The notes under the pieces were generated by a model. It searched no databases. It saw only the letters and a list, made by a program, of their open reading frames with translations, and was not told where the DNA came from. A stretch of 64,000 nucleotides of DNA. It comes from a virus. Made by a program: the position numbers and the translations under genes. Positions 2,195 to 58,680 of the stretch are shown here, piece by piece. The stretch's first letter is position 1. Every line of letters begins with the position of its first letter. The DNA is taken from positions 23,859-87,858 of IMG/VR virus record IMGVR_UViG_3300024344_002032. The stretch is one strand, 5' to 3'.

Positions 2195-3154
2195 TTATCT
2201 AAGTTTTCCTCTTTTTGAATATCTTCTGAACCCACTTCTTACTTTATTCCAAAGTACTCTCATAAAATCTCTTTCGCCTGTATGAGTATCTCTAATTGGA
2301 CCACTCATAATAGCTCTTTGTAAATCGAATGCATCATATTTTTTTGCTTTTACTCCATCCATCATTTTCTTAATTGACATTTGTGATGCTTTTCCTAAAA
2401 TCTTTGACATACCTATAATGTCTTTTTCAGCCATCTTCTGTGCTTCTGGTGAACTATAAGGTAATTGTGATGGTGAGGTAATTGGTGCTTCACTTACGGA
2501 TTCTTTTACTGGTGCTTGTCCTAACTTTTTTCTAATAACATTAATTTGTTTTTTAATTTTTTTCTGTGCTGGACTACCAGGTAATTGTTTCATAGCTTTA
2601 GCTAATAAGATAATCTGTTGCATTTCTAATGAACTCATTTTTCTAGCCATCATAATGCCTGATGTTGGATTTGATACTTCTTTTAATTGATGAGCCATCT
2701 TCAATTTTTGTTTTTTAGTATCTGAAGTACCTGTAACTTTATATCCTAATTGTTCTGCATTTTCTATTCTTGCTTTTTCGAACTTATCTCTATCTTTACC
2801 TTTAAGTTCTCCACCGAAACCCTCATCAGTTACCTTTTCAGGATCGTATTCGAAATCGGGATCTTCGGGCATTCTATAACCCTTTACAGTAACAGCTTTA
2901 GGTCTAACTGCCATAACAGTTTCTCTAACCCTTTTAGCACCATATTTAGCTATTAATCTTTTTAATTCTTCTTTTTTCACCTTATTTGGTAATCCCTTAT
3001 GTTTAGTTGAAGCATACTTTTTAGTATCTTTTTTCTTCATTCCCTTAGCGGCATCTTTTACATCCTTAGATACCTCTGAACCTTTAAGTTCACCCTTTTT
3101 ATAAGCATGAACCATTCCCATAAATCTTTGTTGTGCTTTAGACTTAGATGGCAT
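2195..3154 (-). CDS. Basic head-module protein starting MPSKSKAQQRFMGMV
   Basis: 319 residues, very lysine-rich. The first 15 residues (MPSKSKAQQRFMGMV) match a short motif common in small phage and bacterial proteins annotated as DUF3008; the rest is unassigned. It contains APVKESVSEAPITSP, one of several ESVxE sites in this region that fit the (I/L/V)xE preference of T4-type prohead proteases. The basic composition suggests DNA or scaffold contact within the head. It overlaps the next gene upstream by one base (shared 3154). Function unknown; head location inferred from context. Confidence 0.6.
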   Translation of the reverse strand: MPSKSKAQQRFMGMVHAYKKGELKGSEVSKDVKDAAKGMKKKDTKKYASTKHKGLPNKVKKEELKRLIAKYGAKRVRETVMAVRPKAVTVKGYRMPEDPDFEYDPEKVTDEGFGGELKGKDRDKFEKARIENAEQLGYKVTGTSDTKKQKLKMAHQLKEVSNPTSGIMMARKMSSLEMQQIILLAKAMKQLPGSPAQKKIKKQINVIRKKLGQAPVKESVSEAPITSPSQLPYSSPEAQKMAEKDIIGMSKILGKASQMSIKKMMDGVKAKKYDAFDLQRAIMSGPIRDTHTGERDFMRVLWNKVRSGFRRYSKRGKLR

Positions 3155-18229: not shown

Positions 18230-19717
18230 TTATTTAGTAAAAACCTTTACTCCATAACGATCTTCAAAGTCTTGTGCATCTTTCTCATCATTGACGATTG
18301 GTTGACCTTTTATATTCAAACTTGTATTTAAAACCATAGGACAACCTGTTTCTTTATAAAATTCTTTAATTAATCTGTAATAATTAGGATTATCTTCTTT
18401 AGAAACAGTTTGAACTCTTGATGTTCCGTCAACATGACAAATAGCAGGATATTTATCAGGATACTTACAATTTGCTACAAACTGCATAAACTGAGACTTA
18501 CGAACTGGCATATCAAATATCTCATGAGCGTGTTCTTCCAATACACTTGGTGCGAATGGTCTAAATTCTTGTCTATGTTTAATCTTATTTACTTTATCTT
18601 TTATATCTTTACCTCTTGGATCAGCAAGTAAACTTCTATTACCTAATGCTCGTGGACCATATTCAGCTTTACCATTTGCTACACCAACTATGTTACCCTT
18701 TAGTAACTCACCAAGAACTTTCTTTACAGGATATCTACCTTTTATATTATGTCCGATAAAACATTGTTCAAAGTTAATCTTATCACCATAAACATAAGCT
18801 GCTGAACCTAATGATGAACCTGCATCACCTGGATTTGGCATAATCCATATATCTGGATACATATGTTTAGCTACAAGTGTATTAGCTACACAATTTAATG
18901 CAACTCCACCCATATAAACACAATTATTTGTTTGAGGAACTAATAACTTTGCTAATTTCATAATTTTTAATATTTCTTCTTCACATATCCGTTGAACATT
19001 AGCAGCGATAGTAAAATTCCATTCGTCTGATTCATCGTCTGGATAATATTGAGAATCCCAATCTAAACATCCCCTATGTAAATTTCGTTTAAGGTTTAAA
19101 GTGTCATCATTAAAGAAACTATCCCGTATCTCATATGATATGTGTTCATCCCATTTTCCCCAACCAGCCATACCCATTAGGATGTATTCATCTTCTTGTG
19201 GTTTCAATTCTAATCTTTGTGTCATAGCTGAATACCATAAACCTAATGAATGTGGATACTTTCTACTCCACTTTTTTTCAAACTTACCATCCTTTACGTA
19301 CCAAATAGTAGCACAATCCCACTCACCGATTGCATCTATTACTACAACAACTGCTTCATCAAATGGTGAAGTGTAATATCCTGCTGATGCGTGTGATAGA
19401 TGATGATGAACATAATGTATTTTTTGGTTTATACCAAATTGTTTTAGATACTGTTTAGGTGTATTTTGTCTTGTGAAGACTTCACTATATTGACCTGCGT
19501 AAAGTTGTCGTGTCTTTTTGAGATATGGTTTTTCAAACCAAACTACTTTATCTGGTTTACCAAAAGATAGAGCTTCATCTATTATCTCTTGATTTAGATC
19601 CGAATCGTTTTTCTTACCACTATATCTTTCTGAATGTGCTCCGAATAGTATTTCACCATCTTCAATGACACAAACTGCCGCATCGTGGTTTAATGCGTTA
19701 ATGCCTAATATTCTCAT
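18230..19717 (-). CDS. Carbamoyltransferase, NodU/CmcH family
   Basis: Transfers carbamoyl from carbamoyl phosphate, through carbamoyl-adenylate, to a hydroxyl of a sugar or natural product. 495 residues. N-terminal domain starts MRILGINALNHDAAVCVIED and has the HHLSHASAGYY histidines; the C-terminal YrdC-like part has GKAEYGPRALGNRSLLADPR and QEFRPFAPSVLEE, both hallmarks of NodU/CmcH/TobZ. It lies at the downstream end of the modification block, 8 nt after a B12-type radical SAM gene. An O-carbamoylated sugar is the most likely product. Confidence 0.92.
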   Translation of the reverse strand: MRILGINALNHDAAVCVIEDGEILFGAHSERYSGKKNDSDLNQEIIDEALSFGKPDKVVWFEKPYLKKTRQLYAGQYSEVFTRQNTPKQYLKQFGINQKIHYVHHHLSHASAGYYTSPFDEAVVVVIDAIGEWDCATIWYVKDGKFEKKWSRKYPHSLGLWYSAMTQRLELKPQEDEYILMGMAGWGKWDEHISYEIRDSFFNDDTLNLKRNLHRGCLDWDSQYYPDDESDEWNFTIAANVQRICEEEILKIMKLAKLLVPQTNNCVYMGGVALNCVANTLVAKHMYPDIWIMPNPGDAGSSLGSAAYVYGDKINFEQCFIGHNIKGRYPVKKVLGELLKGNIVGVANGKAEYGPRALGNRSLLADPRGKDIKDKVNKIKHRQEFRPFAPSVLEEHAHEIFDMPVRKSQFMQFVANCKYPDKYPAICHVDGTSRVQTVSKEDNPNYYRLIKEFYKETGCPMVLNTSLNIKGQPIVNDEKDAQDFEDRYGVKVFTK

Positions 19718-19725
19718 TATAACCT

Positions 19726-21012
19726 CTAACCATTAAATGAACTATACTCCATAGACTCTGGATTTAATTTGTTTAACCAATGATACAAATCTTCAAACCT
19801 TGCTTCTAAATCTTTATTTCTAGCCAACAACTTTCCACTTTCTTTTTCATATAAGTTTACATGACTTTTTGATGGATAAGACTGAACATATTCTCTAAAC
19901 CTTTTATGTATTATCTCTACACCATAGAAATCAGGATTCATATAAATAGGTGTGCCAGGATAAGGTGTGAATAATAAACAAATCCACTTATCAGGTTTTA
20001 AATCTAATACAAACTTCTTTGTTGCTTCTATTGATTCTTTTGTTTCACCAGGTAAACCTGTAATAATATAAACCTTAGCTTTCATTCCCCACTTCTGTAT
20101 AACTTGAACTGCATCTTTGTGCATATTATTAGTTGCTTTACCAGCTTTATTAATAAGTTTTAGTATGTCGTCATCTGCTGATTCGAATCCTATACCAACT
20201 TCTCTACAACCTGCATGATATAATAACTCACAATACTCATCATTTAATAATACTGAACTAATGGAACATCTAAATCTGATATCCAATTCGTGTAACATTG
20301 GTGCTAATCTTTCGAACCTTTTTTTATCTATGATTATATTATCGTCTAAAAATCTAAAATGTTTTACACCATACTTATCAATCATAAGTTTTATTTCTTC
20401 TACGATATTCTCAGCACTTCTAAATCTTGTTTTTTGTTGTAGGTTAGCACAAAAAGCACAAGCGAAAGGGCAACCTCTACTTGACATAAGTGTTGCACCA
20501 ATCACATTACTTTCATAGTTGTATCCACCCCACAAATCTGCACTAGCTGCTCTATGGTCAGGTAATAAATGTCTAGCTGGATGTGGTATTGTATCTAAAT
20601 CAACAACTCTATCACCTCTATGAACACCTGTAGGTTTATCTGTACATATTTTAGTTATGATTGCTTCTGCTTCATCTTGAACTACACAATCGAAATGATC
20701 GACACAATCATCTGGTAACCAAGTTGCGTGAGGACCACCAATAATAGTATATGCTTTATCACCATATTTCTTTTTGATATTACTAGCCACTTCTTTCATG
20801 TCATCTATTTGTGGTGTAACTGCAGTTAAACAATAGATATCACCTGGTGGTGGATTATCATATGTATTGAAGTCTTCTCTTAAATCCCACAACTCACATT
20901 CAAAACCATCTCTTTCTAAGACAGCCGCAATGTATAATGGACCCAAAGGTGCGTATGCAAATTGTTTTGCATCCATTTTAGCATCGGGATTTACTATAAT
21001 TACCTTTTCCAT
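19726..21012 (-). CDS. B12-binding-type radical SAM protein
   Basis: 428 residues from ATG at 21012 (MEKVIIVNPDAK), which overlaps the upstream stop as TAATG and has GGAGAG before it. Residues about 1-130 form a cobalamin-binding-like Rossmann domain (APLGPLYIAAVLERDGF) without a clear cobalt-ligand DxHxxG. The radical SAM cluster motif is RGCPFACAFCAN near residue 185. Many family members are methyltransferases or carry out C-C bond chemistry. Co-transcribed with the amidinotransferase and carbamoyltransferase. Confidence 0.88.
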   Translation of the reverse strand: MEKVIIVNPDAKMDAKQFAYAPLGPLYIAAVLERDGFECELWDLREDFNTYDNPPPGDIYCLTAVTPQIDDMKEVASNIKKKYGDKAYTIIGGPHATWLPDDCVDHFDCVVQDEAEAIITKICTDKPTGVHRGDRVVDLDTIPHPARHLLPDHRAASADLWGGYNYESNVIGATLMSSRGCPFACAFCANLQQKTRFRSAENIVEEIKLMIDKYGVKHFRFLDDNIIIDKKRFERLAPMLHELDIRFRCSISSVLLNDEYCELLYHAGCREVGIGFESADDDILKLINKAGKATNNMHKDAVQVIQKWGMKAKVYIITGLPGETKESIEATKKFVLDLKPDKWICLLFTPYPGTPIYMNPDFYGVEIIHKRFREYVQSYPSKSHVNLYEKESGKLLARNKDLEARFEDLYHWLNKLNPESMEYSSFNG

Positions 21013-22031
21013 TAATTTTCTCTCCAAACATCAGCAGTTACACAATGAAATGAACCACCAAGCGTTCTTGAATGTCTTATTTGTAAAGGAACACTATCAA
21101 TTTTATGTTTTTGCAATAATTTTCGTAATTTTACTTGACTTTTATCCAAAATAACTGTATTTTCATCAATTGACAACAAATTTAACCCAATCCAAGTCGA
21201 TGCGTGATTAAAATCACCATAATATCCGATATCTTCACAAGGTGGACACCAAATCTTATCCCAACTCTTCAAAACTTCTGGCATATTGTCTTCATTTACT
21301 CTTTCTGGGTTCAATAAACACAATCCCTCTCTCAAAAGAGCTATAGTTGAATCAATATGAACATAAGAATACATATTTTCAAGAACATGAACCTTATATT
21401 CATCACCTAAAAAGTTTTGTAACCATTTTGCACCAAGTTTATTACCTGTGTTCGATAATAAATATAAGATATCATCGTTACATCTTAAAATATTTGCTGC
21501 ATCAAAGATTGGTTCTGCATTTGTAAGTGTTAACTCATCTAAGTTATATCTCTGATAGTTATCATCAGTTAATCTTGGTTTTGGTGCTGATACCCATCTT
21601 GCACCATCTTTCATATAGTCAATAAACTGATCTCTGAATCCAAATGTTTCAAAATAACGAGACCTTAAAGTCATTGGTGATTCTATAATTGTATCACCGA
21701 TTACTGTAACACTATCTCTTGGACAAAATGTATAATATCCGTCTGACATCCAATCTGGTGTTTGAAATATTTTTGTATTTTCCATAGGTTTCATTCTACG
21801 AACTTTAATGTTGAAAAAAGTTTTTAGAGATTGAGAAAGAATATCCAAATCTTCTTTTGTTTCTTCTATAACTTGTTCGGGATAATATCCTACATACACA
21901 TCGTCAATATTATTCATATGTGCATAATTAATACAATGTAAATCTTTACTTTTAATTGGATTGTTTGCATACTCTGCAGTTCCAACAAAGACTTCTCTTA
22001 ATCTATCCCATTCGTTATTAACTCTAACCAT
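21012..22031 (-). CDS. Amidinotransferase (glycine/inosamine type)
   Basis: Transfers the amidino group of arginine to an amine, as in creatine biosynthesis or StrB1 in streptomycin biosynthesis. 339 residues, close to the family length. The triad is visible: Asp177 in EPIFDAANIL, His225 in SYVHIDSTIALLREG and the nucleophile Cys330 in LGGSFHCVTAD. Placed between two radical SAM genes with single-base overlaps. An amino-sugar or amino-cyclitol acceptor would fit the nearby PLP aminotransferases, but the acceptor cannot be seen. Confidence 0.9.
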   Translation of the reverse strand: MVRVNNEWDRLREVFVGTAEYANNPIKSKDLHCINYAHMNNIDDVYVGYYPEQVIEETKEDLDILSQSLKTFFNIKVRRMKPMENTKIFQTPDWMSDGYYTFCPRDSVTVIGDTIIESPMTLRSRYFETFGFRDQFIDYMKDGARWVSAPKPRLTDDNYQRYNLDELTLTNAEPIFDAANILRCNDDILYLLSNTGNKLGAKWLQNFLGDEYKVHVLENMYSYVHIDSTIALLREGLCLLNPERVNEDNMPEVLKSWDKIWCPPCEDIGYYGDFNHASTWIGLNLLSIDENTVILDKSQVKLRKLLQKHKIDSVPLQIRHSRTLGGSFHCVTADVWREN

Positions 22032-23176
22032 TAGAAAAATCCTTTTTCATGTCCAGTCTTCAATTCATTTTCTGAATACTTGTAATGACCATCACTTATT
22101 CTAGCTGCATATTTATTGTAATCATAATATCTACATTGACTACTACATTTTTTCCAACTAAGAAAGTTTTTCATCTTGTCCAACAAATCATCTCTCTGTA
22201 AAAAATCAAGTCCATTTTCTATCCAATCATCAATAACATAATCTTGATTTCCTAAATGTTCACAACACCACAAAACATTACCATTAGAATTTACAACCAC
22301 ATAAAATAAAGGTGCAAAGCATTGTTTTACGTGATGTGTCCAATCTATATCAGACCAAGAATAATTCTCTATATTAGAACTTGGTTCATTAATTAATTTT
22401 GAATGTCGTTGTTTACCAAACGTTCCTTTGTAACTTATACCTTTTTCTTCACAATAATTTCTAACTTCAACTTCTACCTCTTCCCAAGTATACCCATCAG
22501 GTGGTTCTAATGTTCTTTTACCAGCTCTTTCCATTGTTGCAGTTCTATCACTAAAATAAACAATTCTTTGAAAATATTCATCAAAACCCATTTCAACTGC
22601 TAAATCAACATTAGCTTTTAAATCAGAAATTTCTTTGTTGTAATCATTAATCAAAACTTTATAAGTAAAAAAAGTACCATAACTTTGAAACTGATTCATT
22701 TTTTCGGATATACTTTTTTTAACCTTTTCTAAGTTACCTTTTCTTATAATAAAATATTTTTCTGGATCTGCAGTATCAATATCTATACCTACCCAACTTG
22801 GTTTATAATCTTCTGTAAAATTTAGATGTCTAAATCTTGCTCCATTAGTTATTAATCCTACCTTATATCCTTTTCTTAAAACATGATTTATAATTTTATC
22901 AGCATCTTTATGATCTAATGGTTCTCCACCTCCTGAAAAGGTAACATCATTAATACCATCGGGTAAATTATCTATAAAATTTATCCAATCCTCAGTAGTT
23001 GCTTTATCAGGATTATGTTCTCTAAATATTTCCGAATTACAATAATAGCAAGCTTGATGACAAGTATTAGTTATTTGCAATTCAATACTTAATGGTACTG
23101 GTGTTTTACCATGATTTATAATATCATTTAATCTTTCGAAATGATATTGTGCTTTGTTGACTAATCCCTCACTCAC
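22031..23176 (-). CDS. Radical SAM protein with SPASM-like C-terminus
   Basis: 381 residues. The cluster motif is TNTCHQACYYCNSE near residue 35-45, followed by VTFSGGGEPLDHK. The C-terminal part holds several cysteines (WCCEHLG, KKCSSQCRYYDY) as in SPASM/twitch domains that bind auxiliary iron-sulfur clusters. Such proteins often modify peptides or small alcohols and amines. It overlaps the amidinotransferase start by one base and the SGNH gene upstream by four. Confidence 0.88.
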   Translation of the reverse strand: MSEGLVNKAQYHFERLNDIINHGKTPVPLSIELQITNTCHQACYYCNSEIFREHNPDKATTEDWINFIDNLPDGINDVTFSGGGEPLDHKDADKIINHVLRKGYKVGLITNGARFRHLNFTEDYKPSWVGIDIDTADPEKYFIIRKGNLEKVKKSISEKMNQFQSYGTFFTYKVLINDYNKEISDLKANVDLAVEMGFDEYFQRIVYFSDRTATMERAGKRTLEPPDGYTWEEVEVEVRNYCEEKGISYKGTFGKQRHSKLINEPSSNIENYSWSDIDWTHHVKQCFAPLFYVVVNSNGNVLWCCEHLGNQDYVIDDWIENGLDFLQRDDLLDKMKNFLSWKKCSSQCRYYDYNKYAARISDGHYKYSENELKTGHEKGFF

Positions 23177-35259: not shown

Positions 35260-36316
35260 AAATCCTTTTAATTTTATCTGTAAATTGTTTTATTATTTCC
35301 TCACAGCTGAATAATACCTTTTGATTGTGAATACATTTTTCTTCAACCGATTCACAAATCTTGTGAAGTTCCTCTTGATTCATAGTACCAACTCTTAGTA
35401 TTTCCTTTTTAATAAAAGCATCTCTTTTATCCATATCTTCTATCTCATCGTAAGACTCATCAAATAATTCTGGAAATGTTTCAAACCCATAATCTCTTAA
35501 TTGTTTTAATGCACCAACAGAACACATCATAATAAATGGGTGTCCATGAGCTAATACCTTTGTTGTTTTTTCTGTTAAAAATAATGAATTAGGTGCAACA
35601 GTCCATTTGTTAGATTCTGGTATAAATGAAAAATAGGAACGATTAAAATAATATCCTAAATTATCTGTTTTTGCTGTAGAATTTCTTTGAGTAATATTTT
35701 TTATTATTCCACTATCTTCTAATACTATTGGATCCTTCCATTCATTGTTTCCAATATAACTAATATAATTACTATCCCATAAATTATTATCATTAAAAAA
35801 TTTCTGTAAAGAGTTTCTATGTCGTGAATAGATTCCCATAAGACACATAAAATTTCTGTTAGGGTGTATAGGTCTATCTTTATATTTTATTATTTCATGA
35901 ATATTAGTTAATTTATATTCAAGTGCTCTATGTTGAAATAAACTTGGATGTCCTATTACATTCATTTTATATTTTATATTTTTTTGTTCACACCATTTAT
36001 TATATAATGTTTCAAAGTTACAATCTTCCGTCATCAAAATAACTTTTTTTGCATTTATATTTTCTAATAAAAAATTATGTAATTTTGTAAATGAATCTTC
36101 ACCACTACGATTAAAAATATCACACTCCCAATATTCATTTAAATCTATTAATATAAATGATTTATCCAAACTATCCATTTTATTAATAGCTTCAAGTAAT
36201 TCTTTTTCTTTTACTGGATTATCTTCTAATTCATAATTAAAAGGTCTTTCATCAAAAATAAAAATTTTATCAGTAATCAGTTTTTGTATATTAGAATTAA
36301 AATTATCCAAGTACAT
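35249..36316 (-). CDS. GT-B-like putative glycosyltransferase, paralogue 2 of 5
   Basis: 355 residues, most like the gene directly downstream. It shows FMCLMGIYSRHRNSLQ, LTEKTTKVLAHGHPFIMM, LRDYGFETFPELFDESYD and a VGTMNQEELHK end. The N-terminal half (NAKKVILMTEDCNFETLYNKW) fits a Rossmann-like acceptor domain. Overlaps the SDR gene upstream by 14 bases. Tandem duplication with its neighbour is likely, with clear divergence since. Confidence 0.5.
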   Translation of the reverse strand: MYLDNFNSNIQKLITDKIFIFDERPFNYELEDNPVKEKELLEAINKMDSLDKSFILIDLNEYWECDIFNRSGEDSFTKLHNFLLENINAKKVILMTEDCNFETLYNKWCEQKNIKYKMNVIGHPSLFQHRALEYKLTNIHEIIKYKDRPIHPNRNFMCLMGIYSRHRNSLQKFFNDNNLWDSNYISYIGNNEWKDPIVLEDSGIIKNITQRNSTAKTDNLGYYFNRSYFSFIPESNKWTVAPNSLFLTEKTTKVLAHGHPFIMMCSVGALKQLRDYGFETFPELFDESYDEIEDMDKRDAFIKKEILRVGTMNQEELHKICESVEEKCIHNQKVLFSCEEIIKQFTDKIKRIYDV

Positions 36317-37139
36317 ATTTTTTACCTTTTAAATCTTTACCTATCATCTCTATAATGTATTTAGAAAATTTACTCAATCGAAAACCTTTTTTAAAACAAA
36401 ATGATCCTACATTCAAATTAAATTGTTTATAATAAAATTTACACAACTCTTCACCTAACGATTTAGTAAATTGATATTCATCTACATATATATCATCCTT
36501 TGGCATACAACTAATATAAAATATCTGAGCATATTTGGAATTTTCCCATTTATGTCCTATAAATTCTGTAATTCTTTCGTTATTTCTCCTATCTATATCT
36601 TCTTTATGTTGACCATGAATAGCAAATTCAAGCATATTTTTAGTACTAATAACATTAGCATCAAGTGAATCCATAGGAAACGAAATACCAGTATGTTGAT
36701 ATTCTTTAAAATGATCAACATTTTTAGCTACATCAAGTACATGAGTTAATCCTGCACAATGAATTATTATATCTGGATTTCCAATTTGATAACCATTTGT
36801 ATGATAGTTTTCTGGCTGACCAAGATCACAATCTAATAAATTATCAAAAACTCTACCAGTTCTTCGTCTTACTTTCATACTACCATCTTTATCTTTATGA
36901 TCTGGTCTTCTGTATGGTTTGGCTATATCACAAACTAAATACCTAACACCTAACATTTTTTTTGAATCATCTATTTTTTTACTAGTAGAATAATTGTCAA
37001 GAGAAATAATGTTAAGTTTAACATCTTTCTTTCCATCATATTCATAGTCTGCTTGAAAATTGAGTAATTCTCTAATCACACTTCTCCCAATAACACCTCC
37101 TCCGCCAGTTACTAATACTCTTAAAGAACTATCCTTCAT
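36303..37139 (-). CDS. NAD-dependent SDR, epimerase/dehydratase-like
   Basis: 278 residues. VTGGGGVIGRSVIRELL binds NAD, IIHCAGLTHVLDVAK and EYQFTKSLGEELCKFYY (YxxxK) are in order. The C-terminal substrate domain is short compared with ordinary extended SDRs, and residues about 60-125 hold a charged insertion (PDHKDKDGSMKVRRRTGR). Reaction likely on a nucleotide sugar; specificity unknown. Overlaps its neighbours by 11 and 14 bases. Confidence 0.8.
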   Translation of the reverse strand: MKDSSLRVLVTGGGGVIGRSVIRELLNFQADYEYDGKKDVKLNIISLDNYSTSKKIDDSKKMLGVRYLVCDIAKPYRRPDHKDKDGSMKVRRRTGRVFDNLLDCDLGQPENYHTNGYQIGNPDIIIHCAGLTHVLDVAKNVDHFKEYQHTGISFPMDSLDANVISTKNMLEFAIHGQHKEDIDRRNNERITEFIGHKWENSKYAQIFYISCMPKDDIYVDEYQFTKSLGEELCKFYYKQFNLNVGSFCFKKGFRLSKFSKYIIEMIGKDLKGKKYVLG

Positions 37140-38055
37140 TTGAATACCACTCTATAGTTTCTGTAATTCCATCTTCTAGTGTATAGTTTGGTTTAAACCC
37201 AACCGACTCTGCTCTACTTGTATCCATTTGTCGTCTCATATCACCATTTGGTTTTGTTGTATCATAATCTATTTCTTGTTCAAAATAATTTGCGATTATC
37301 TCTGCAATATCTGAAATTCTTACCTCTTTACCACTACCAAGATTTACTGGTACATTTATTTTATTTTCAACCATGTGTAACATACCACGAGCTACATCTT
37401 TAGAATAAATAAAATCTCTTATAGGTGAACCATCACCCCATACCTCTAATATATCATTGTTGTCGTGATATGCTTTTTTAATTAATGAAGCTATAACAGT
37501 AGATTCATCTCCAAAATTATCGTGAGGTCCATATATGTTAGCAGGTCTAACTATAGATATATTATCATATCCATATGTAGCTCTAATAGCATAACAACTT
37601 AACTCACCCATCCGTTTTATATAAGCTGGAACTTTATCATTCTCACTTGGAACTTTATTCCATACATCATCTTCTTTATAATATTCACTTGGTGGATAAA
37701 CTCCGATTGAACTTGTGTATAAAAACCAATCTGGTTTCCATTGTCCAACTGCCTGTATAACATTAGTATCAAACTGTACCATTGGTAAATAATCTGCAGG
37801 TTTTTCTTTTGCTCTAAGTGGTGAACCTTTAATTCCTGCTAAATGATAAACATGATCATAATCTGCAATTATACTTGTATTGGTTTTAAATGTCATATCA
37901 CAAGGTTCATAATCAACATTATCTGGCAAATCTTGTGGTATCTTAAAACCAACATCTGCAACACAAACCTCATCGTAAACCTTAGAACACAACTCTGTAA
38001 GTTGTCTTCCAACCATTCCTCTTCCACCTATTATGAGTGCAGTTTTATTTATCAT
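37129..38055 (-). CDS. NAD-dependent SDR, epimerase-like, catalytic Tyr displaced
   Basis: 308 residues from ATG at 38055 (MINKTALIIGGRGMVGRQL), with GGAG 9 nt upstream; an ATG at 38070 is also in frame. DHVYHLAGIKGSP and RPANIYGPHDNFGDE are SDR motifs and the end fits GDP-fucose synthase-like enzymes. YxxxK is read PAYIK: the residue four before the lysine is Pro and a Tyr sits two before it. The paralogue at 26493-27401 has a similar change (VGWMK), so this may mark a distinct subgroup. Confidence 0.84.
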   Translation of the reverse strand: MINKTALIIGGRGMVGRQLTELCSKVYDEVCVADVGFKIPQDLPDNVDYEPCDMTFKTNTSIIADYDHVYHLAGIKGSPLRAKEKPADYLPMVQFDTNVIQAVGQWKPDWFLYTSSIGVYPPSEYYKEDDVWNKVPSENDKVPAYIKRMGELSCYAIRATYGYDNISIVRPANIYGPHDNFGDESTVIASLIKKAYHDNNDILEVWGDGSPIRDFIYSKDVARGMLHMVENKINVPVNLGSGKEVRISDIAEIIANYFEQEIDYDTTKPNGDMRRQMDTSRAESVGFKPNYTLEDGITETIEWYSNEG

Positions 38056-38575
38056 TATAATAGTCTCCATACTCTATCAATAAAGTTGACCTATCAGCAT
38101 TATATGCATTTTCAAATTCTCTAAATATATCATCTGGCTCTTCTAATAACACTACGTCTACTTCATGTAACATTGATTTAAAACTCATAGTATAATCTTG
38201 TGTATGTTGAACACCACCATTAAGTGGATTCTTAGAACCAATTGAAGTTCTCATAATAACTTTAGGTTTAAATGTACCCTCTGTCATATGTTGCATTTTA
38301 TCTAAGTGGTTTACCAAACTATCCATACACCTTAACATAAAATCAAATCGTGGAAAACAACAAATAGGAACTAAACCATTCATAGCCATTCCTGTACACA
38401 TACCCATTTGAACTTCTTCAAATACTGGTACTTCAATCCTTTTATCAATATCTATTGTTTTTAAAGTATTGTATATTGCATTACCACTATAAGCAACTGA
38501 TTGTCCGATAAAAGTTGTATCTTCTTTTTTAGCCAACCACTCCATACTTCTTATTAGTTCATCTTTATACTTCAT
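38045..38575 (-). CDS. Thiamine-diphosphate enzyme, beta-like (Pyr) subunit, minimal
   Basis: 176 residues from the ATG at 38575, whose A is shared with the stop of the alpha-like gene (TAATG). It matches the pyrimidine-binding domain of pyruvate-dehydrogenase E1 beta/transketolase: FIGQSVAYSGNAIYNTL, RIEVPVFEEVQMGMCTGMAM with the conserved Glu that activates thiamine diphosphate, and IMRTSIGSKNPLNGG. The transketolase C-terminal domain is missing. Works with the neighbour as one enzyme. Confidence 0.8.
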   Translation of the reverse strand: MKYKDELIRSMEWLAKKEDTTFIGQSVAYSGNAIYNTLKTIDIDKRIEVPVFEEVQMGMCTGMAMNGLVPICCFPRFDFMLRCMDSLVNHLDKMQHMTEGTFKPKVIMRTSIGSKNPLNGGVQHTQDYTMSFKSMLHEVDVVLLEEPDDIFREFENAYNADRSTLLIEYGDYYNDK

Positions 38576-39159
38576 TAGAATAACACCCAATTTCCTGTTC
38601 CATGATGTGGGTAATCACTTTTATATTCATAGTGATATACATCTGCTGGTACTGTTTGCTTTCCACCCCAAGTTTCATCAACTGGAGTATTAGTGGAAAG
38701 ATTATTATCTTCAATTACAAACTCTAAAGGTAAGTTAAAGTTTCTGGCATATTTATATGTCTCATAAAACAATCCTGTTTCAAAAGTCATATCACCCACA
38801 AAACACCAAACCTTATTCTCCTCACCTTTCATTTTAATTGACATAGCAGTTCCAAGAGCTATCGGTAATATTCCACCAACAATAGATGATGAATAGAATT
38901 TTGGTTTATCTGAATATACACTCATACTCTTACCACGAACAATCATATCCATAAGTGTATCTCTTGGAATACCATGCAGTAATGCATGATAATGATTTCT
39001 CCAACTACAAAATACCCAATCATCTTTATCAATGTTTTTAAATATTTCAATTAATGGTTCTTCATTATTAGAACTTAAATGAACTGGTGCTTTAATCTCA
39101 CCAGCTTCATATCTCTCTTTAACTTCTGTTTCAAAGTCTATTAAATATTGTTTATCCAT
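38575..39159 (-). CDS. Thiamine-diphosphate enzyme, alpha-like (PP) subunit, minimal
   Basis: 194 residues. The thiamine-diphosphate motif GDMTFETGLFYETYKYARNF and EDNNLSTNTP is clear, and HYHALLHGIPRDTLMDM and SSIVGGILPIALGTAMS fit E1-alpha/transketolase-type subunits, though this form is only about half to two-thirds the usual length. Together with the next gene it should form a heteromeric lyase, decarboxylase or ketol transferase, perhaps building a branched or higher-carbon sugar. Overlaps the SGNH gene upstream by 19 bases. Confidence 0.8.
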   Translation of the reverse strand: MDKQYLIDFETEVKERYEAGEIKAPVHLSSNNEEPLIEIFKNIDKDDWVFCSWRNHYHALLHGIPRDTLMDMIVRGKSMSVYSDKPKFYSSSIVGGILPIALGTAMSIKMKGEENKVWCFVGDMTFETGLFYETYKYARNFNLPLEFVIEDNNLSTNTPVDETWGGKQTVPADVYHYEYKSDYPHHGTGNWVLF

Positions 39160-40028
39160 TTTGACACTACCTCTTTTGCAAATTTGTTATGTGCTATATT
39201 AGATGGATGTTCATCTACTGCTGATCCATCTCTATTTTTTCTATCTCCTGTAATATATCTTTCTTCAAATGGTAGATTATCTACACTCCATTCTGTTATA
39301 CCACCTAATTTTTTGTGAAACCAAAAATTATCCCAATCTATCATTTTCCACAGGTGTCTTATTTCGATAGGATATCTTGGTATCTTTGGTAATTGATAAA
39401 ATATATTCCAACCACCAAACATTTTGTATTTAATATCTTTAGATTTAAAATACCATTGTAGTCTTAAAATATGTTCTAAAGTTTTTGTTACAGAAAATAC
39501 TTCATTACTATAATATTTGTAATGATACTTTGACATCGATTCTTTAGCATAACTATGCTTTAACCACATCATATTTTTATTAATTCTTGTAACTGCTTCC
39601 CAATTTATATTACCCTCACCCGTACCTCCGCCATCTAATGCTGGTATAAAGTGTGTAAGTAAATTTTTATCTGTTTTACTACTAGCGTCAATTATATCTA
39701 CTAAAAATTCTTCTCTTTCAGGTGCAGTTAATTGAACACAAACATAATCAACTTTTAAATTTAATTCTAATAATTGTTCTACTTTATAAATTACTGCTCT
39801 TGATATGTAACCATTACCTGCTCCTGGTAAAGCAGTATTATATACTTTAGATTTTGGAATGATATCTTCTAAATGTAATGCCCAACTTTTATAACCACTC
39901 TCAGGTTGATAATCATCAAGATTATCCTGCATACCATGAGAAGCATAATCTATACAATTTCTTGTTTCAGTAAAACTACATCCAGCTGTAACTATATTTT
40001 TCTTAACTCCTTTATATCTGATACTCAT
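39141..40028 (-). CDS. SGNH/GDSL-like hydrolase
   Basis: 295 residues. VTAGCSFTETRNCIDYA holds the block I serine, NTALPGAGNGYISRAV the Gly/Asn region and AVDEHPSNIAHNKFAKEVV the Asp-x-x-His pair. Architecture parallels the SGNH-like gene at 23173-24024 but sequences have diverged. Possible esterase or acyl-transfer role on glycan; no signal peptide, so cytoplasmic or virion-associated. The ATG overlaps the cupin gene stop by ATGA. Confidence 0.72.
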   Translation of the reverse strand: MSIRYKGVKKNIVTAGCSFTETRNCIDYASHGMQDNLDDYQPESGYKSWALHLEDIIPKSKVYNTALPGAGNGYISRAVIYKVEQLLELNLKVDYVCVQLTAPEREEFLVDIIDASSKTDKNLLTHFIPALDGGGTGEGNINWEAVTRINKNMMWLKHSYAKESMSKYHYKYYSNEVFSVTKTLEHILRLQWYFKSKDIKYKMFGGWNIFYQLPKIPRYPIEIRHLWKMIDWDNFWFHKKLGGITEWSVDNLPFEERYITGDRKNRDGSAVDEHPSNIAHNKFAKEVVSKWINNI

Positions 40029-40543
40029 CTATCTCTCGCACTCAATATTGGTTTAACTCCAGTAGGCCAATCAATACCCAATCTAACATCATTCCATTTC
40101 AATGTCTCTTGTCCATCAATATCAACATAATCTTCTGGATAAGATTGTGTATAATGAAACAAACATTCATCACTTAGACAGAGATGTCCATTAGCAAAAC
40201 CTGGTGGTACTAAAACACTCAAATGATTTCTATCTGTAATTGTAAAGCTATCCCATTTTAAATAATTGACTGAATCGGGACGATTGTCCACTACGACTAA
40301 ATATATTTCTCCCCACACACAACTGATATATTTCCAAGTAACACCATCTGTGTGTAATCCACGTAATACATCTTTTCTAGAACGGGTAAATTTAGATATT
40401 TTCCATATATTATTTTTTGGTAAAAGATTACGACCTTTTTCCCAAAACGTCCACATTTCACCACGATAATCGTGAAATGGTTTTGGTTGAAGTAATTTCA
40501 CCTCAGGAAGTATTTCTGATCCTGTAACTTTAGTTTTAAACAT
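40025..40543 (-). CDS. RmlC-like cupin sugar epimerase/isomerase
   Basis: 172 residues from ATG at 40543. FHDYRGEMWTFWEKGRN, VLRGLHTDGVTWKYISCVWG and VPPGFANGHLCLSD are the dTDP-4-keto-6-deoxyglucose 3,5-epimerase (RmlC) motifs in order, including the His of RGLH. The exact sugar is unknown. In-frame upstream ATG at 40570 would add MPPELEAFF, encoded by the leader hairpin, and is unlikely because GGAGG sits ideally 7 nt before 40543. This is the only gene in the block with a long structured leader, so it may be separately controlled. Confidence 0.85.
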   Translation of the reverse strand: MFKTKVTGSEILPEVKLLQPKPFHDYRGEMWTFWEKGRNLLPKNNIWKISKFTRSRKDVLRGLHTDGVTWKYISCVWGEIYLVVVDNRPDSVNYLKWDSFTITDRNHLSVLVPPGFANGHLCLSDECLFHYTQSYPEDYVDIDGQETLKWNDVRLGIDWPTGVKPILSARDR

Positions 40544-40568
40544 AAAAAAAGCCTCCAATTCAGGAGGC
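40544..40568 (-). terminator. Rho-independent terminator / ribosome-site hairpin before the cupin gene
   Basis: Six GC-rich base pairs (GCCTCC/GGAGGC), a 6-nt loop (TGAATT) and seven T on the minus strand, ending directly at the ATG. Could end transcription or hide the GGAGG site; both would repress the cupin gene. Confidence 0.65.
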
Positions 40569-40663
40569 ATCAACTAATTTGATGCCACTCTTGTTTTATA
40601 GTCATTTGTGTAGAGAGTTTGGACTTTCAAGTTTTCACTTGGGTTAGCTCTACCCGACTCATA
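40544..40663 (-). promoter_or_regulatory. Riboswitch-like structured leader with competing hairpins and terminator
   Basis: Minus-strand leader of the cupin gene. Upstream part: GTAGAG (40653-40648) pairs with CTCTAC (40615-40610), enclosing a CAAGT-GAAA-ACTTG hairpin (40641-40628). Then GGCATCAA (40586-40579) pairs perfectly with TTGATGCC (40573-40666 counted downward as 40573-40566). Its last three bases also form the start of a second hairpin, GCCTCC (40568-40563)/GGAGGC (40556-40551), followed by T7. The second hairpin contains the GGAGG ribosome site. The two hairpins exclude each other, as in attenuators and riboswitches. Known ligand class not recognised. Confidence 0.6.
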
Positions 40664-40671
40664 TATAAATA
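40664..40671 (-). promoter_or_regulatory. TATTTATA promoter-like element before the structured leader
   Basis: Minus-strand TATTTATATATGA just after the stop of the upstream gene and immediately before the structured leader, where a -10 element would place transcription start at the leader's first stem. Confidence 0.4.
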
Positions 40672-43523: not shown

Positions 43524-45169
43524 AATACTTTATATAACTCCATAATTTTATTTATTGTTTCTTTGGCTGGGTTTAATTTAACAAAATGTTTAAAGTTGTG
43601 AACAAGAACATCTGCTTGTTTAACATACCAATCCAATAATTGTGTTTTACTCATCTCACATAATCTATTAACTTCTGATAACAACATCTTTGACCTTTTA
43701 TCAAAATCTTTTTCATCATCATAACTTTCATCAATATATGGTGAAAATGTTTTATAACCTAAATTTTTTAACTGTTTAAGTGAACCATAATTTGAAACTA
43801 AAAGAAATGGATGAAAACACATTATATCTTTCCAAATTTTTTCTGTTAGATATATCGTATCGTTACTTGTAGCAAATGTATTATAAGTATATGAAAAGAA
43901 AGTGTTATTGTAAAAACTTTCATCCCAAGCTGTAAATCCATTCACATCATCAAAAGATTTTTTATCAATATACAATGGTAATTTGTTTAGTAAATCTTTA
44001 ATATTATCATGATGTTTAATTTCGTCATTATTAAATAATTCACATTGTAAATTAATAGTTAAAGAAAACTTATCAATTATATCTTTATCAGAAATAATTT
44101 TATTAAGTTCGTAATCTGTATTATCTTTTAATTTATCTTTTAATTTTTCTGATATATATGGTGAATTAAATAATCTTTCTTTTGATAAAATAAATGAAGT
44201 TAAACCTTTTTCGTGCAATCCATGATAGTTTAATCCTAATGAATGAAATAGTCTCCAATCCTTAACTAATTTACAAAGACATAAAAAACTTTTCATATCA
44301 GATAAATTATCTTTTTTATAATTAAAAGCCTCTTCAAATTTATTTTCAGCCCACTTATCTAAAGAATCAACACCTATATTAATTTCTGGATTAACATCAT
44401 CAGTTGAAACTCCAAAACCATTCCAAACATCTATTGTACTTAAATGATATTTGTTAAGATTAGGTATAGGATTTGGTTCACGATTTTTCATAATAACTTC
44501 TGTCCAATTAAGAACCATTTGATTCATAGATTTATATTTGTCTTCTATCTTATAATTGGATGTTAAATAAACTATATTATCTAATGGAAAATTTTCTTTA
44601 GTTGCTAAATTATAAATTTCTTCTCCTATGTGTTCATAGTAACCTGCTTCCGATATTGACATATCATCTATAGATTGCATTGGAAATCCCTCATCTGACA
44701 TATCCACTACTAATAAAACTTTACCTTTTCTGATATATTCTTTAGTATGTTGTTTTATGTTAATAAATAATTTACCTCTGTCTTCTTTCCAATTATGAGG
44801 TCCAGATTTAGTTCCGATGATATAAATAAAAGGTATATCTTTTTTAATAAGATGTGTTGTATCGAAATTATATACCTTAAAGTTTTGATTATAAAAATAT
44901 CTCATTACACTATATAAATTATGCCAATCATTAGTTGTTTCATAATCATCAAACAATGGTAATGTATCAGCATCGTTTGACCAAATATTAGTTGGTCTAA
45001 TATGAGAAAATTTTTCTTCCATAATCTTTTGTATATTTGATTGTTGAGACCAATTATAATAATCCCAACCAAAATAAACATCATCTAAAAGACTTTGATC
45101 GACATATAAAGGATATGGTGATATACCATTGTTTGCTAAAGTTATATCATCAATCATAAACAAATTCAT
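43520..45169 (-). CDS. GT-B-like putative glycosyltransferase, paralogue 5 of 5
   Basis: 549 residues, closest to paralogue 4 over its whole length: FGWDYYNWSQQ, NDADTLPLFDDYETTNDW, LLVVDMSDEGFPMQS, FLCLCKLVKDWRLFHSL, LTEKIWKDIMCFHPFLLV, FSPYIDESYDDEKDFDKR and RLCEMSKTQLLDWY. Clearly a tandem duplicate of the gene downstream of it. Overlaps a radical SAM gene upstream by 20 bases. Confidence 0.5.
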   Translation of the reverse strand: MNLFMIDDITLANNGISPYPLYVDQSLLDDVYFGWDYYNWSQQSNIQKIMEEKFSHIRPTNIWSNDADTLPLFDDYETTNDWHNLYSVMRYFYNQNFKVYNFDTTHLIKKDIPFIYIIGTKSGPHNWKEDRGKLFINIKQHTKEYIRKGKVLLVVDMSDEGFPMQSIDDMSISEAGYYEHIGEEIYNLATKENFPLDNIVYLTSNYKIEDKYKSMNQMVLNWTEVIMKNREPNPIPNLNKYHLSTIDVWNGFGVSTDDVNPEINIGVDSLDKWAENKFEEAFNYKKDNLSDMKSFLCLCKLVKDWRLFHSLGLNYHGLHEKGLTSFILSKERLFNSPYISEKLKDKLKDNTDYELNKIISDKDIIDKFSLTINLQCELFNNDEIKHHDNIKDLLNKLPLYIDKKSFDDVNGFTAWDESFYNNTFFSYTYNTFATSNDTIYLTEKIWKDIMCFHPFLLVSNYGSLKQLKNLGYKTFSPYIDESYDDEKDFDKRSKMLLSEVNRLCEMSKTQLLDWYVKQADVLVHNFKHFVKLNPAKETINKIMELYKVL

Positions 45170-46403
45170 CCAAGTCAGGAATATAATTAATTATGTGTTG
45201 TTTTCTGTGCATATCAAGTTTTTTTGTATAAATTTTAAATTTGTATATTGCTTCTTCATCATCTAAAGTTTCTTGAAGTGTCGATAAATTACTTTTTAAA
45301 ATTCCTAACCATTGTTCTTCACCTGCACTCCACTCTACATCTTTTTTACTCTCAATAAAATTATCTATTCTCCCTATAGCAAGATTTTTTAATTTAGTTG
45401 GTAATATTCTACAATCATACCAATTAGGATATGTTACCCAATTACTAAAAGGAATTCTCCAAAAACCCAAATCACCTAATGAGTATACCCACTCTAATAA
45501 CTTATCATAATTCAAAACATTCAATGCTTGAAATGTAGAATGAACTTGTAAATCCATACTAAGTCCCTTTTTCCAATCAGATACCTGTTTTATATTTTTT
45601 TCTATCTTATCCCATCTAGATGGATATCTAATATAATCATCAACTTCTTTGTAACCATCAATACTCACTCCAAGATAAATATGTCTAAATTCTTTCCATA
45701 TATAAAACAACTCATCTTTTAATACAGTAAGATTTGTTGTATAAAATAAAACCATATTTTTTGCAATACCATGCTTAATACATTGGTTAAGAAAATCTGT
45801 ATGTTCTTTTATGATTAAAGGTTCTCCACCAAGAAAATTAACTTGCTTTAAATGCTTAAAATTATTTTCAAAGAAATCATCACTTAAAAATCTATCATCT
45901 ACTGATATGTTTGTTGTCGGTAATTCAAAATTATCCTTATATAATAATTTAGATTCTTTTTCCCATAAGTTAGAATTATCTACATTACACATTCTACATA
46001 TCAAATTACATTTATTACCTACAGTAAAATCTAAAAAAGTAACATATGGATCGTCAATCCGACCCTTATCATTCATAGACTCTAACATAATCTCTTTATA
46101 GAAACCACTTGCTAAAGTATTATTCCAAATAGTTCTATAACTTTCAGCACCATTATCCTCTGTTTGCCAACATCTAAAACAACCAGGGTCTTTTTTGTTT
46201 TCTAATATGTTTTTTCTTATTCTTGTATGTACATCACTATTAAATGCTTTTTCCATAGTAAAGTGTGGATTTGTAATTGATATTGGATTACCATCTTTGT
46301 CTTCTGGTATTTCATAATTATTACAACAAACTCTAACCTGTCCTTTTTGATCAAAGCTTAATGAAGTAAATAAATGTGAACAAAAATATTTTAAATCTTC
46401 CAT
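45150..46403 (-). CDS. Radical SAM protein, twitch/SPASM-like
   Basis: 417 residues. Cysteines near the N-terminus (KYFCSHLFTSLSF, VRVCCNNYE, GCFRCWQTE) come before the radical SAM cluster motif GNKCNLICRMCNVDNS near residue 145, followed by VNFLGGEPLIIKE. The same layout is in the genes at 49636, 51053 and 52376: an N-terminal cysteine region, then the barrel. Peptide or small-molecule modification is typical of such proteins. Confidence 0.88.
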   Translation of the reverse strand: MEDLKYFCSHLFTSLSFDQKGQVRVCCNNYEIPEDKDGNPISITNPHFTMEKAFNSDVHTRIRKNILENKKDPGCFRCWQTEDNGAESYRTIWNNTLASGFYKEIMLESMNDKGRIDDPYVTFLDFTVGNKCNLICRMCNVDNSNLWEKESKLLYKDNFELPTTNISVDDRFLSDDFFENNFKHLKQVNFLGGEPLIIKEHTDFLNQCIKHGIAKNMVLFYTTNLTVLKDELFYIWKEFRHIYLGVSIDGYKEVDDYIRYPSRWDKIEKNIKQVSDWKKGLSMDLQVHSTFQALNVLNYDKLLEWVYSLGDLGFWRIPFSNWVTYPNWYDCRILPTKLKNLAIGRIDNFIESKKDVEWSAGEEQWLGILKSNLSTLQETLDDEEAIYKFKIYTKKLDMHRKQHIINYIPDLDEFVYD

Positions 46404-48634
46404 TAGTGTTTTCCTGTCATAAAAGTTCTTTTTAAATTAATTTTATATTTTTCAATATCTAAAGCATCAAGATAATTTGGTACACCATATTTCTTTTGTA
46501 AATATTCTTCATCCTCATATCTATCATTTAAATTTCCAATATCATGAAATCTATCATGAAAACTAATATCATATAAACTAATAAGAGTTTGTTCTTCTTT
46601 AGTTTGTGATAAATGAATGTGACCAGGATGAACTGGATTTTTATCCTCTTTAAATTTTCTAATAATCTGTTGTCTTCTATCTGTCCATGCTTGTTTATGT
46701 GAATATTTATATTTAATAGGTAATTGTATATGTACTGTTTTCTTTGCTCTCTCATCTATCGTTAATTTATTATCTATAGATAATCTATAAGTACCATCAA
46801 AATTTGATTCCCATTTAAACTTAGTAACCATTCTAGCACCATCTATATTTCTTTCACTATAATCTTCATCAAACTCAACCTCTATTTCATAAGGACCATT
46901 TAACTGATGCATTAACCAACACCAAACTCTTATTTCATTTCTTGTTTCTATTTTTATAGTATCTTCTATACTGACTGAAGGATCGTATTCTCCTGTTTCT
47001 GGTATATTAGCAAACTCCAAATAAGGAACATTATAATCTATATCTTTTATAGCAAATTGATGTGGAAATTGTCTTCTATTATGTGTTTGTTGCCAAAATG
47101 TTCCATTATGTTTTGGAGTCCATTCTTTAAATTCTTTTTGATTAAATATAGAATCCTTATCTTTAAACTTCAAATATTTTATATCATCACTTACAGTCCA
47201 AAACCCTGAATAATATATCTTATATATGTTCAAAAACATATGACATAACTTTAATCTTAAAAATCTATTAATATATGTATTTTTTAAATCCCAACTAATC
47301 CAATCATAAAATATATTTCCCAAATCAGTAATATTAAATACATCTCTATATTGATCAAGTGCCGTACCTGGAGTTACTCCTGCAGGAAATTGATTTGCTG
47401 CTACTACAGGAATATAATGTTTGTTCTTATATAAGAAATATAAACTGATTATCCAATCAACGTGATTTTCTTTTGGGTATCCTGATATCCAATTAGCATC
47501 CATACGAATACCATTTCTCCAACATGCTTCCCAAAGTTGTTCTACTCCCTCAACTGTCTGTCTCTTTTCTATAACCTCAAGTATCTTAGGTGTTCCACTC
47601 TCCACTCCAATAGACAACCACTTAAATCCTGCTTTAGAAGCTACTTTCATTAAATCATTATTCATCTCTTTATGTGTTCTTGCATAACCACCAAAACTTA
47701 AATCTTTTAGTCTTGGGTCTTTCTCTACTTCTTTAGCCATCTCATTTACAAATACTTTGAATTGTGGCATAGAACCATTGACAAGAGAATCTACAAATGA
47801 GAAGTGTGTAACTCCATACTTGTTAACTTGTTCAAGAACTTCTTCTTTAATATCAAGACCTTTTCTAAATCTAAAAATTCTTGTCTCTGAACAAAATGTA
47901 CATTTATAAGTACAACCACGTGAACCTTGTAATGGTAAATGTGTATGTCCCTCATAATGAAATTGTGCATATGCTGGCAAGTCTACACCATCCCAATTAG
48001 CATTTGGTATAACAGTTAAATCTTTTTGTGGTTCTCTCATACCTGTAGATATTGGTTCTCCGTAATCATCCCATGTCCATATACCACTTACTTCTTTATA
48101 ATCTGTTTTATTTTCATAACAATCTACCAAATCATTTATAATTAACTCACCCTCAGTATCACAAGAAACTTTAATCCAATATCTATCTGGTTCTCCCTCA
48201 GGTGTAGATTGTCTCAAACCACCTTTAGGTGCATTCCAACAATAAGCACCACCATAAAAAATATGTATTTTTGGATTTTTATTATACAATCGTTTAGCAA
48301 TATAATCTGTTACTACAATGTTTGAGAAGTAAGTTGTAAATGTAACAATATCAAACTGTGCCATTTCTTCTATCAACGTATCCCAATACTCTTTATAAGC
48401 AGGAAGAATTCTATCTTCAAAAGAATGATCATTAGTCCAAAAGAAATGACCAGTTGGTGCCCACAATTCTTCTTGTGAATCTTGGTCTACGTGTATAGCA
48501 GATAGTAAGTTAACATGAAATTGTTTTACTTTTCTACCTTTGGTTTTTAAAGCACCAGCTAATAAACCAAGACTTAGTGGTGGTGTTTCTAAAGACCAAG
48601 CGGGACACATTACTACTGCTACTTTAGCTTTCAT
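46403..48634 (-). CDS. B12-binding-type radical SAM protein, long C-terminal extension
   Basis: 743 residues. Residues about 1-190 form a cobalamin-binding-type Rossmann domain (PAWSLETPPLSLGLLAGAL); the cluster motif QGSRGCTYKCTFCSETRIF lies near residue 240. After the barrel (ending about residue 450) there is a 290-residue extension with a likely beta-rich region (GPYEIEVEFDEDYSERNI) that I cannot assign. Overlaps its two neighbours by one and eleven bases. Confidence 0.88.
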   Translation of the reverse strand: MKAKVAVVMCPAWSLETPPLSLGLLAGALKTKGRKVKQFHVNLLSAIHVDQDSQEELWAPTGHFFWTNDHSFEDRILPAYKEYWDTLIEEMAQFDIVTFTTYFSNIVVTDYIAKRLYNKNPKIHIFYGGAYCWNAPKGGLRQSTPEGEPDRYWIKVSCDTEGELIINDLVDCYENKTDYKEVSGIWTWDDYGEPISTGMREPQKDLTVIPNANWDGVDLPAYAQFHYEGHTHLPLQGSRGCTYKCTFCSETRIFRFRKGLDIKEEVLEQVNKYGVTHFSFVDSLVNGSMPQFKVFVNEMAKEVEKDPRLKDLSFGGYARTHKEMNNDLMKVASKAGFKWLSIGVESGTPKILEVIEKRQTVEGVEQLWEACWRNGIRMDANWISGYPKENHVDWIISLYFLYKNKHYIPVVAANQFPAGVTPGTALDQYRDVFNITDLGNIFYDWISWDLKNTYINRFLRLKLCHMFLNIYKIYYSGFWTVSDDIKYLKFKDKDSIFNQKEFKEWTPKHNGTFWQQTHNRRQFPHQFAIKDIDYNVPYLEFANIPETGEYDPSVSIEDTIKIETRNEIRVWCWLMHQLNGPYEIEVEFDEDYSERNIDGARMVTKFKWESNFDGTYRLSIDNKLTIDERAKKTVHIQLPIKYKYSHKQAWTDRRQQIIRKFKEDKNPVHPGHIHLSQTKEEQTLISLYDISFHDRFHDIGNLNDRYEDEEYLQKKYGVPNYLDALDIEKYKINLKRTFMTGKH

Positions 48635-49643
48635 TTATCTCTTCTTTTTTTATTATTCTAAACTCTTCATTTTTTCTTGTTTTAGGTATTATAACATCCG
48701 TTCCACAAGTACAATGATTTTTAGGACATATAACAGGACTTCCTATATGATTTAAATCTTCTACTTTCCAAGTATTAATATTACTAAATATATCACTAAC
48801 ACCACAACTACCAGCGCTAACATCACCTCTTGGACTTATAAAAATTGCATCATTTAAATAACAAGTCCATCCTTGAAAATTAGTTAATTTTTCTGCTGAT
48901 AATCTATTAGAATTTACAGGTCTGACTTTACCATCGTTCCAAACCTCTAAACTATAAGCAGGTTTGAACTTTCTTCTTTCATTTACCTTTCCCCATTTCC
49001 TCATATAACCATCTGTCTCCTTAAAAAAGTCATTTTTCCAATCTTCATCATAATCCCACATCTCTGCACTTGTAGATAAATCTTTTAATAATGGGACCCA
49101 TTCTACAACACAATTATCCATTTCGTCATAAATCTTTTTACCAATATCAATACATTCTTGAAATCTACTCTCTTCCATCATAATTCTCAATGCTAAATAA
49201 TTCATTTTATCTTGTAAAAATTTAGCATTCTTAATATATTTATCATACTTAATATATTCAATATGATAACTTGCTACAACATCTTGAAAGTAATAATAAT
49301 TATCTAACCACCAATTTAAAGGGTTACTTAAATTTGTATTAATAGCTAAAAGTGGTGTATTACATTTTTCGTGTAAAAATTTTGCTATTGGTATAAGTGG
49401 TTTCCAATAAGTTGGTTCACCTCCTGAAAAAAAGAACTTAAATGATTCATAACCAAGTGATTGATATTTTGATATCATAATATCTAAAAATTCTATATAC
49501 TTGTCTGTATCTTTATTTAAATTATTGCCACCCCAATTACCCTCATTACAATAAGAGCATCTAAAGTTACACCAATCATTAACTTGCCAAGTAACATTCA
49601 TATACTTGTTTTCACCTGGTAATATTTTTAATAACTCAGTCAT
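48624..49643 (-). CDS. Radical SAM protein
   Basis: 339 residues. DWCNFRCSYCNEGNWGG near residues 28-40 is the iron-sulfur motif and FKFFFSGGEPTYWKP the SAM-binding GGEP. Auxiliary cysteines near the end (AGSCGVSD, CPKNHCTCGTD) suggest an extra cluster. Has no N-terminal cysteine region, unlike its neighbours. Confidence 0.88.
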   Translation of the reverse strand: MTELLKILPGENKYMNVTWQVNDWCNFRCSYCNEGNWGGNNLNKDTDKYIEFLDIMISKYQSLGYESFKFFFSGGEPTYWKPLIPIAKFLHEKCNTPLLAINTNLSNPLNWWLDNYYYFQDVVASYHIEYIKYDKYIKNAKFLQDKMNYLALRIMMEESRFQECIDIGKKIYDEMDNCVVEWVPLLKDLSTSAEMWDYDEDWKNDFFKETDGYMRKWGKVNERRKFKPAYSLEVWNDGKVRPVNSNRLSAEKLTNFQGWTCYLNDAIFISPRGDVSAGSCGVSDIFSNINTWKVEDLNHIGSPVICPKNHCTCGTDVIIPKTRKNEEFRIIKKEEINES

Positions 49644-58672: not shown

Positions 58673-58680
58673 TATAAATA
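58673..58680 (-). promoter_or_regulatory. TATTTATA promoter-like element (TATTTATATATGAC)
   Basis: In the 62-nt gap between the Hint protein gene and the GT7-like operon, 22 nt before the ATG at 58651. The 14-base extended form is identical to that at 8816. Confidence 0.42.

Follow-up and report, generated by a model that had tools for sequence, protein, structure and literature searches.

A candidate riboswitch-type leader RNA at the head of nucleotide-sugar operons in T4-like marine phages

Results

A structured leader precedes an rmlC-like phage gene

Comparison of a 64,000-nucleotide stretch of viral DNA (the window) with related phage records points to a riboswitch-type cis-regulatory RNA of T4-like marine phages that would act by transcription termination combined with masking of the ribosome binding site, a reading to which we assign a probability of roughly 0.6. 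As is expected of a riboswitch, the RNA is structurally conserved with covarying pairs and occupies the 5′ leader of genes that form a functionally coherent set, and sequence comparison establishes its predicted fold, including a pseudoknot.

All elements of the leader, together with the ATG of the rmlC-like gene, are read on the minus strand of the window (40671-40543). The outer stem, P1, is formed by AGTC (40659-40656) and GACT (40603-40600) and spans 40600-40659. Inside it lies P2 (GTAGAG, 40653-40648, with CTCTAC, 40615-40610; span 40610-40653), which encloses P3, a hairpin with a GAAA loop in which CAAGT (40641-40637) pairs with ACTTG (40632-40628; span 40628-40641). The 5′ strand of the pseudoknot (40616-40622) consists of CCA (40622-40620), a bulged AA and CT (40617-40616), and its 3′ strand is AGTGG (40589-40585); an extra pair between 40615 and 40590 is possible. 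Two hairpins follow. P4, which is antiterminator-like, has 8 bp formed by GGCATCAA (40586-40579) and TTGATGCC (40573-40566; span 40566-40586), and the terminator-like P5, recovered by a terminator scan, has 6 bp formed by GCCTCC (40568-40563) and GGAGGC (40556-40551). P5 and the T7 tract at 40550-40544 together span 40544-40568, and the ATG of the rmlC-like gene follows at 40543-40541. Measured from P1, the RNA extends over about 75 nt through the pseudoknot and over 116 nt when the whole T-tract is included.

Much of this picture had been anticipated in a first-pass annotation. Its 8-bp and 6-bp hairpins, their three-base overlap, the T7 tract and the ATG are correct to the base, and its 6-bp stem enclosing a GAAA-capped hairpin is present, as is the TATTTATA element at the start of the leader. 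P2 to P5 were recognized correctly, and the outer stem P1 and the pseudoknot were missed. The folding energy of the window leader is only marginally distinguished from that of shuffled sequences (z = -1.66, with 15 of 200 shuffles folding equally well), so that one sequence is unable to settle the structure and the comparison of relatives is decisive.

Immediately upstream of P1, at 40660-40671 on the minus strand, TATTTATATATG is probably a promoter motif of the phage; it contains TATTTATA at 40671-40664. Although gaps account for only about 3% of the window, eight of the 12 occurrences of TATTTATA on its minus strand are intergenic, as are all five occurrences of the longer form TAYTTATATA on this strand. 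This enrichment in gaps suggests that TATTTATA is probably the promoter of the phage. The promoter-type motif TATTTATA(TAT) is found on the minus strand at window positions 58680, 40671, 12926, 8823 and 1317, and the promoter motif lies upstream of the RNA in 17 of 17 members, from which we infer that the transcript starts at or near P1. Read on the opposite strand, the motif gives TATAAATA, the word of T4 late promoters.

Distribution of the RNA among related phages

Using the RmlC protein as the query, we retrieved 13 other viral loci. The leader stands immediately 5′ of rmlC in five of them (L001, L006, L009, L010 and L011), and a pattern scan revealed another in L016, which precedes a gene other than rmlC. 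A covariance model built from the sequences of five relatives was then searched against whole records. The RNA was detected in 12 of the 13 other rmlC-carrying phage records (E ≤ 1.4e-7); in seven (L003, L004, L005, L007, L008, L012 and L013) it is located farther upstream of rmlC, where the operon begins. The RNA was not found in the 30-kb contig of L002, in which a homolog of rmlC is present. Members are well separated in these searches of whole records, scoring at least 44.8 bits, with everything else at 18.7 bits or less. Further pattern scanning yielded six more leaders (L201, L213, L215, L209, L223 and L228). When duplicates are merged (L001 is identical to the window leader, L010 to that of L009 and L213 to that of L201), the collection comprises 17 distinct leaders, 16 of which are distinct within the aligned stretch.

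All members derive from one phage lineage, which is represented by marine viral contigs numbering in the hundreds. The window phage is T4-like by its portal, terminase and head protease, and the nearest terminases from isolates, at 58-59% identity, belong to Microcystis and Flavobacterium phages, in which the RNA is absent. Searches elsewhere were negative. A DNA similarity search of a phage collection with the locus found nothing, and searches with two member leaders gave short chance matches only. One match to a member leader, in S-CAM9, was rejected, as it lies inside a coding region of a genome that has no covariance-model match, and two weak model matches, of 18.4 and 18.8 bits, among phages that had been isolated or assembled were set aside; the RNA was not matched in the isolated phages that were checked. 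Loose pattern scans of viral contigs produced many chance matches in coding DNA, which were discarded on reading, and a pattern scan of bacterial genomes produced four matches, all judged to be chance. Covariance-model scans of 398 genomes of the phylum of a Coxiellaceae MAG and of 292 genomes of the phylum of a Nostocales MAG, both run with strict filters and without a positive control, gave none, and the RNA was not found in the approximately 700 bacterial genomes checked in all.

Covariation supports the fold and a pseudoknot

Over all 20 pairs of the alignment, 94.6% of cells hold standard pairs and 11 pairs show two-sided changes. Control pairings in which the partners were slid by 1-3 columns were paired in 34-49% of cells with one or two two-sided pairs, and none of 500 shuffles reached the covariation score. 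P1 (AGUC/GACU) is paired in every member and is invariant in sequence, which leaves it unproven by covariation. Two-sided changes are present in five of the six P2 pairs, where 96.9% of cells are paired and the forms diverge as far as GUAGAG/CUCUAC, GUGGUG/CACCAC and UAUGAU/AUCAUA, with 2-5 steps per varying pair on the RmlC tree. P3 shows two-sided changes in four of its five pairs (85% of cells paired); L209, L223 and L228 carry a CUC-UUCG-GAG hairpin in its place.

The pseudoknot, formed in the window by CCAAACT and AGTGG, pairs CCA-AA-CY with RG-UGG across the alignment. In total, 96.2% of its cells are paired, with A-U/U-A and C-G/U-A exchanges, the U-A version of the varying pair being the window's own, and the possible sixth pair shows a C-G/G-C exchange. 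As the alignment model excluded the pseudoknot, these counts are independent of it, whereas those for P1-P3 lean on an alignment fitted to P1-P3. Covarying pairs each require 2-7 changes on the RmlC tree, which argues that the pattern is not a single ancient event, with the qualification that this tree could be wrong for the RNA if recombination occurred. The unpaired segments TAAC, AAAG-CC and CTATAAA are strongly conserved, as a binding pocket would predict.

The pseudoknot shares bases with a predicted terminator switch

The last two G residues of the pseudoknot 3′ strand (40586-40585) double as the first bases of P4, so that the pseudoknot connects the aptamer-like domain with the predicted switch. 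The 3′ arm of P4 in turn overlaps the 5′ arm of P5 at 40568-40566 in the window, and the ribosome site GGAGG lies within the 3′ arm of P5. Through these shared bases the predicted expression platform is mutually exclusive with the aptamer-like fold, as is characteristic of riboswitches.

The arrangement recurs among the relatives. A P4 of 6-8 bp is present in 17 of 17 members, and automatic scoring found the exact 3-nt overlap of P4 and P5 in 14 of 17, in both cases with differing sequences. The other three (L201, L215 and L013) went unscored for the exact overlap because the script had favoured an extended P4; by eye, L201 and L215 retain a hairpin before a T-tract, and L013 has a hairpin at the ribosome site without a T-tract. 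Considered alone, P4 has an energy of about -5 to -10 kcal/mol and P5 of about -5 to -14 kcal/mol. The first-pass annotation had proposed that an aptamer-like region precedes two hairpins that exclude each other, and had set compensatory changes beforehand as the test; such changes are seen across homologous leaders, and the stems and T-tract are retained in nearly all of them. In the L006 leader (approximately 2918-3000) the first terminator-like hairpin is followed by another, CTCTCATAA/TTATGGGAG, which precedes a T9 tract and rmlC and likewise contains the ribosome site.

The RNA heads operons for nucleotide-sugar metabolism

The first gene behind the leader in the window (40028-40543, minus strand) encodes a protein of the dTDP-4-dehydrorhamnose 3,5-epimerase family (PF00908, E = 2.2e-33) whose match to TIGR01221 falls short of the cut-off. 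Behind it on the same strand, the remaining genes of the first part of the operon span 36303-40028 and comprise an SGNH-like candidate (39141-40028) with no family match in Pfam or NCBIfam, followed by genes assigned with these two collections: a split thiamine enzyme with E1 alpha-like (38575-39159) and E1 beta-like (38045-38590) parts, and NAD epimerases at 37129-38070 and 36303-37139. Homologs of these genes lie behind the RNA in the other members. The alpha-like and beta-like genes (38045-39159) are together covered by a single PHROG, phrog_34187, whose function is unknown.

In every member rmlC is downstream of the RNA, as one of genes 1-4, or as gene 10 in L013; it is gene 2 wherever readable in L201, L213, L215, L209, L223 and L228. 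The members fetched with RmlC are biased towards this association; L016 and the six just named, which came solely from the RNA pattern, are not. A split E1 alpha protein is encoded in nearly all of the operons and NAD epimerases in most, and some also include a GDP-mannose-dehydratase-like or DegT-family enzyme. We would guess that the split E1 enzymes, together with the 3,6-dideoxysugar-type enzymes of relatives, hint at a branched deoxysugar pathway. The operon context fits a possible response to a metabolite or to the state of the host; the first gene differs among members and so does not point to one ligand. Elsewhere on the minus strand of the window, at 18230-23176 and 45150-49643, the late-type phage genes have among them a carbamoyltransferase and several radical SAM enzymes, including one that has a B12-binding domain, which is an unusual biosynthetic load.

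Discussion

A model for control by the leader, and its alternatives

Sequence comparison establishes the predicted chain of mutually exclusive pairings and the association of the RNA with the operon, and a mechanism can be proposed on this basis. Transcription from the phage promoter would begin at P1 or close to it, and P1, P2, P3 and the pseudoknot would fold into a compact, aptamer-like unit. A pseudoknot stabilized, presumably by bound ligand, would occupy the two G residues that open P4 and weaken this hairpin, which would free the shared GCC and allow terminator P5 to form; transcription would then stop before the operon, and P5 would also mask the ribosome site. Without such stabilization P4 would form, P5 would be blocked and the genes for nucleotide-sugar synthesis (rmlC, E1 alpha/beta and epimerases) would be expressed. 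Switching would be driven by a small molecule, its binding would turn the genes off, and the ligand would probably belong to the sugar pathway. Weighing against the model are the invariance of P1, the lack of a T-tract in L013, the second hairpin of L006, the three members left unscored for the exact overlap, the variable first gene and the restriction of the members to one lineage. It is possible, though we hold it to be the less likely outcome, that the RNA represents a new riboswitch class, so far confined to phages, whose ligand is a nucleotide sugar or an end product of the deoxysugar pathway for which the operon itself codes.

Conserved structure and a switch would appear identical if the same fold were the binding site of a phage or host protein that chooses between P4 and P5, making the leader a protein-controlled attenuator or an autoregulatory element. 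T4-like phages use RNA-binding regulators, and protein contacts could explain the conserved loops. However, the operon has no recognizable gene for an RNA-binding regulator, and a pseudoknot with conserved loop bases seems more typical of small-molecule aptamers, and we regard protein control as a minority prospect. Somewhat less probable is a constitutive structured leader, whose partial terminator or stability hairpins would tone down or protect the mRNA while sensing no signal. The marginal advantage of the window fold over shuffles would suit such a leader, and a terminator coincident with the ribosome site could merely lower expression; a static terminator, however, would have no need of a conserved pseudoknot, conserved loops or the 3-nt overlap of P4 and P5.

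The short ATG frame ATGAGTCGGGTAGAGC within the window leader raises the matter of attenuation by ribosome stalling on a leader peptide. The frame has no preceding ribosome site, and by inspection most members, more than half, lack its ATG and the encoded peptides do not resemble one another. We rejected this explanation, which we consider scarcely credible, for want of a conserved start codon. Descent from wcaG, manA or another Rfam family would be in keeping with the shared setting, near sugar genes of T4-like marine phages (PMC2864571). Such an origin is nevertheless very improbable, given that the wcaG and manA models miss the leaders in 18 records and that Rfam gives no gathering-level match.

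Significance of a possibly sugar-responsive phage leader

Few riboswitches have been reported in phages, and we found no nucleotide-sugar-sensing phage riboswitch in the open-licence literature. The riboswitch-type leader proposed here is a compact RNA with a sharply defined, testable switch. It offers a direct route to asking whether phages sense host metabolites when they remodel surface sugars, and the common operon shortens the list of candidate ligands. A sugar-sensing class, if true, would let the phage match the synthesis of surface sugars to the sugar-nucleotide pool of its host.

Comparison with known riboswitches and riboswitch candidates

No description of the leader RNA was found in the literature, a search restricted to open-licence papers, and its novelty is for that reason probable rather than certain. 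A survey of related pelagimyophages reported no riboswitches, using a tool limited to established classes (PMC7029224). In the window, an Rfam 15 scan gave no gathering-level match, including none of the glnA type, and scans of members at a permissive threshold gave low, scattered scores only.

The wcaG RNA, which the first-pass annotation had offered as a lead, is a riboswitch candidate from DNA of marine and T4-like cyanophages that is typically located 5′ of exopolysaccharide genes, and manA RNA is another from marine and cyanophage DNA, located before mannose/fructose and nucleotide genes (PMC2864571). The leader resembles wcaG RNA as a marine phage riboswitch candidate near sugar genes, but the lead did not hold, as neither model matches any leader. 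Among the 18 member records, searched with E up to 10, nothing exceeded the 42-bit gathering cut-off of wcaG (RF01761), the best chance match (13.2 bits) being away from the leaders. For manA (RF01745, gathering cut-off 55.2 bits) no leader was matched in the same records, and the model length of 192 contrasts with about 75 nt for the leader. A manA-like match below that cut-off is present in the 216-kb record of L009 (G009:C1:181997-182193; 44.7 bits, E = 2.4e-11), with a weaker neighbour at 181814-181998; it is separate from the leader.

Phage Melnitz and its relatives carry a glutamine (glnA-type) riboswitch (PMC9004378). Like the leader it occurs in marine T4-related phages, whereas it belongs to a known aptamer class and has another gene context. 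In pseudoknot riboswitches with an antiterminator/terminator platform, such as those of the preQ1 type, one strand of the pseudoknot shares bases with the expression platform. Although its helices and conserved bases differ from theirs and it has no Rfam match, the leader shows an overlap of pseudoknot and platform like that of these RNAs.
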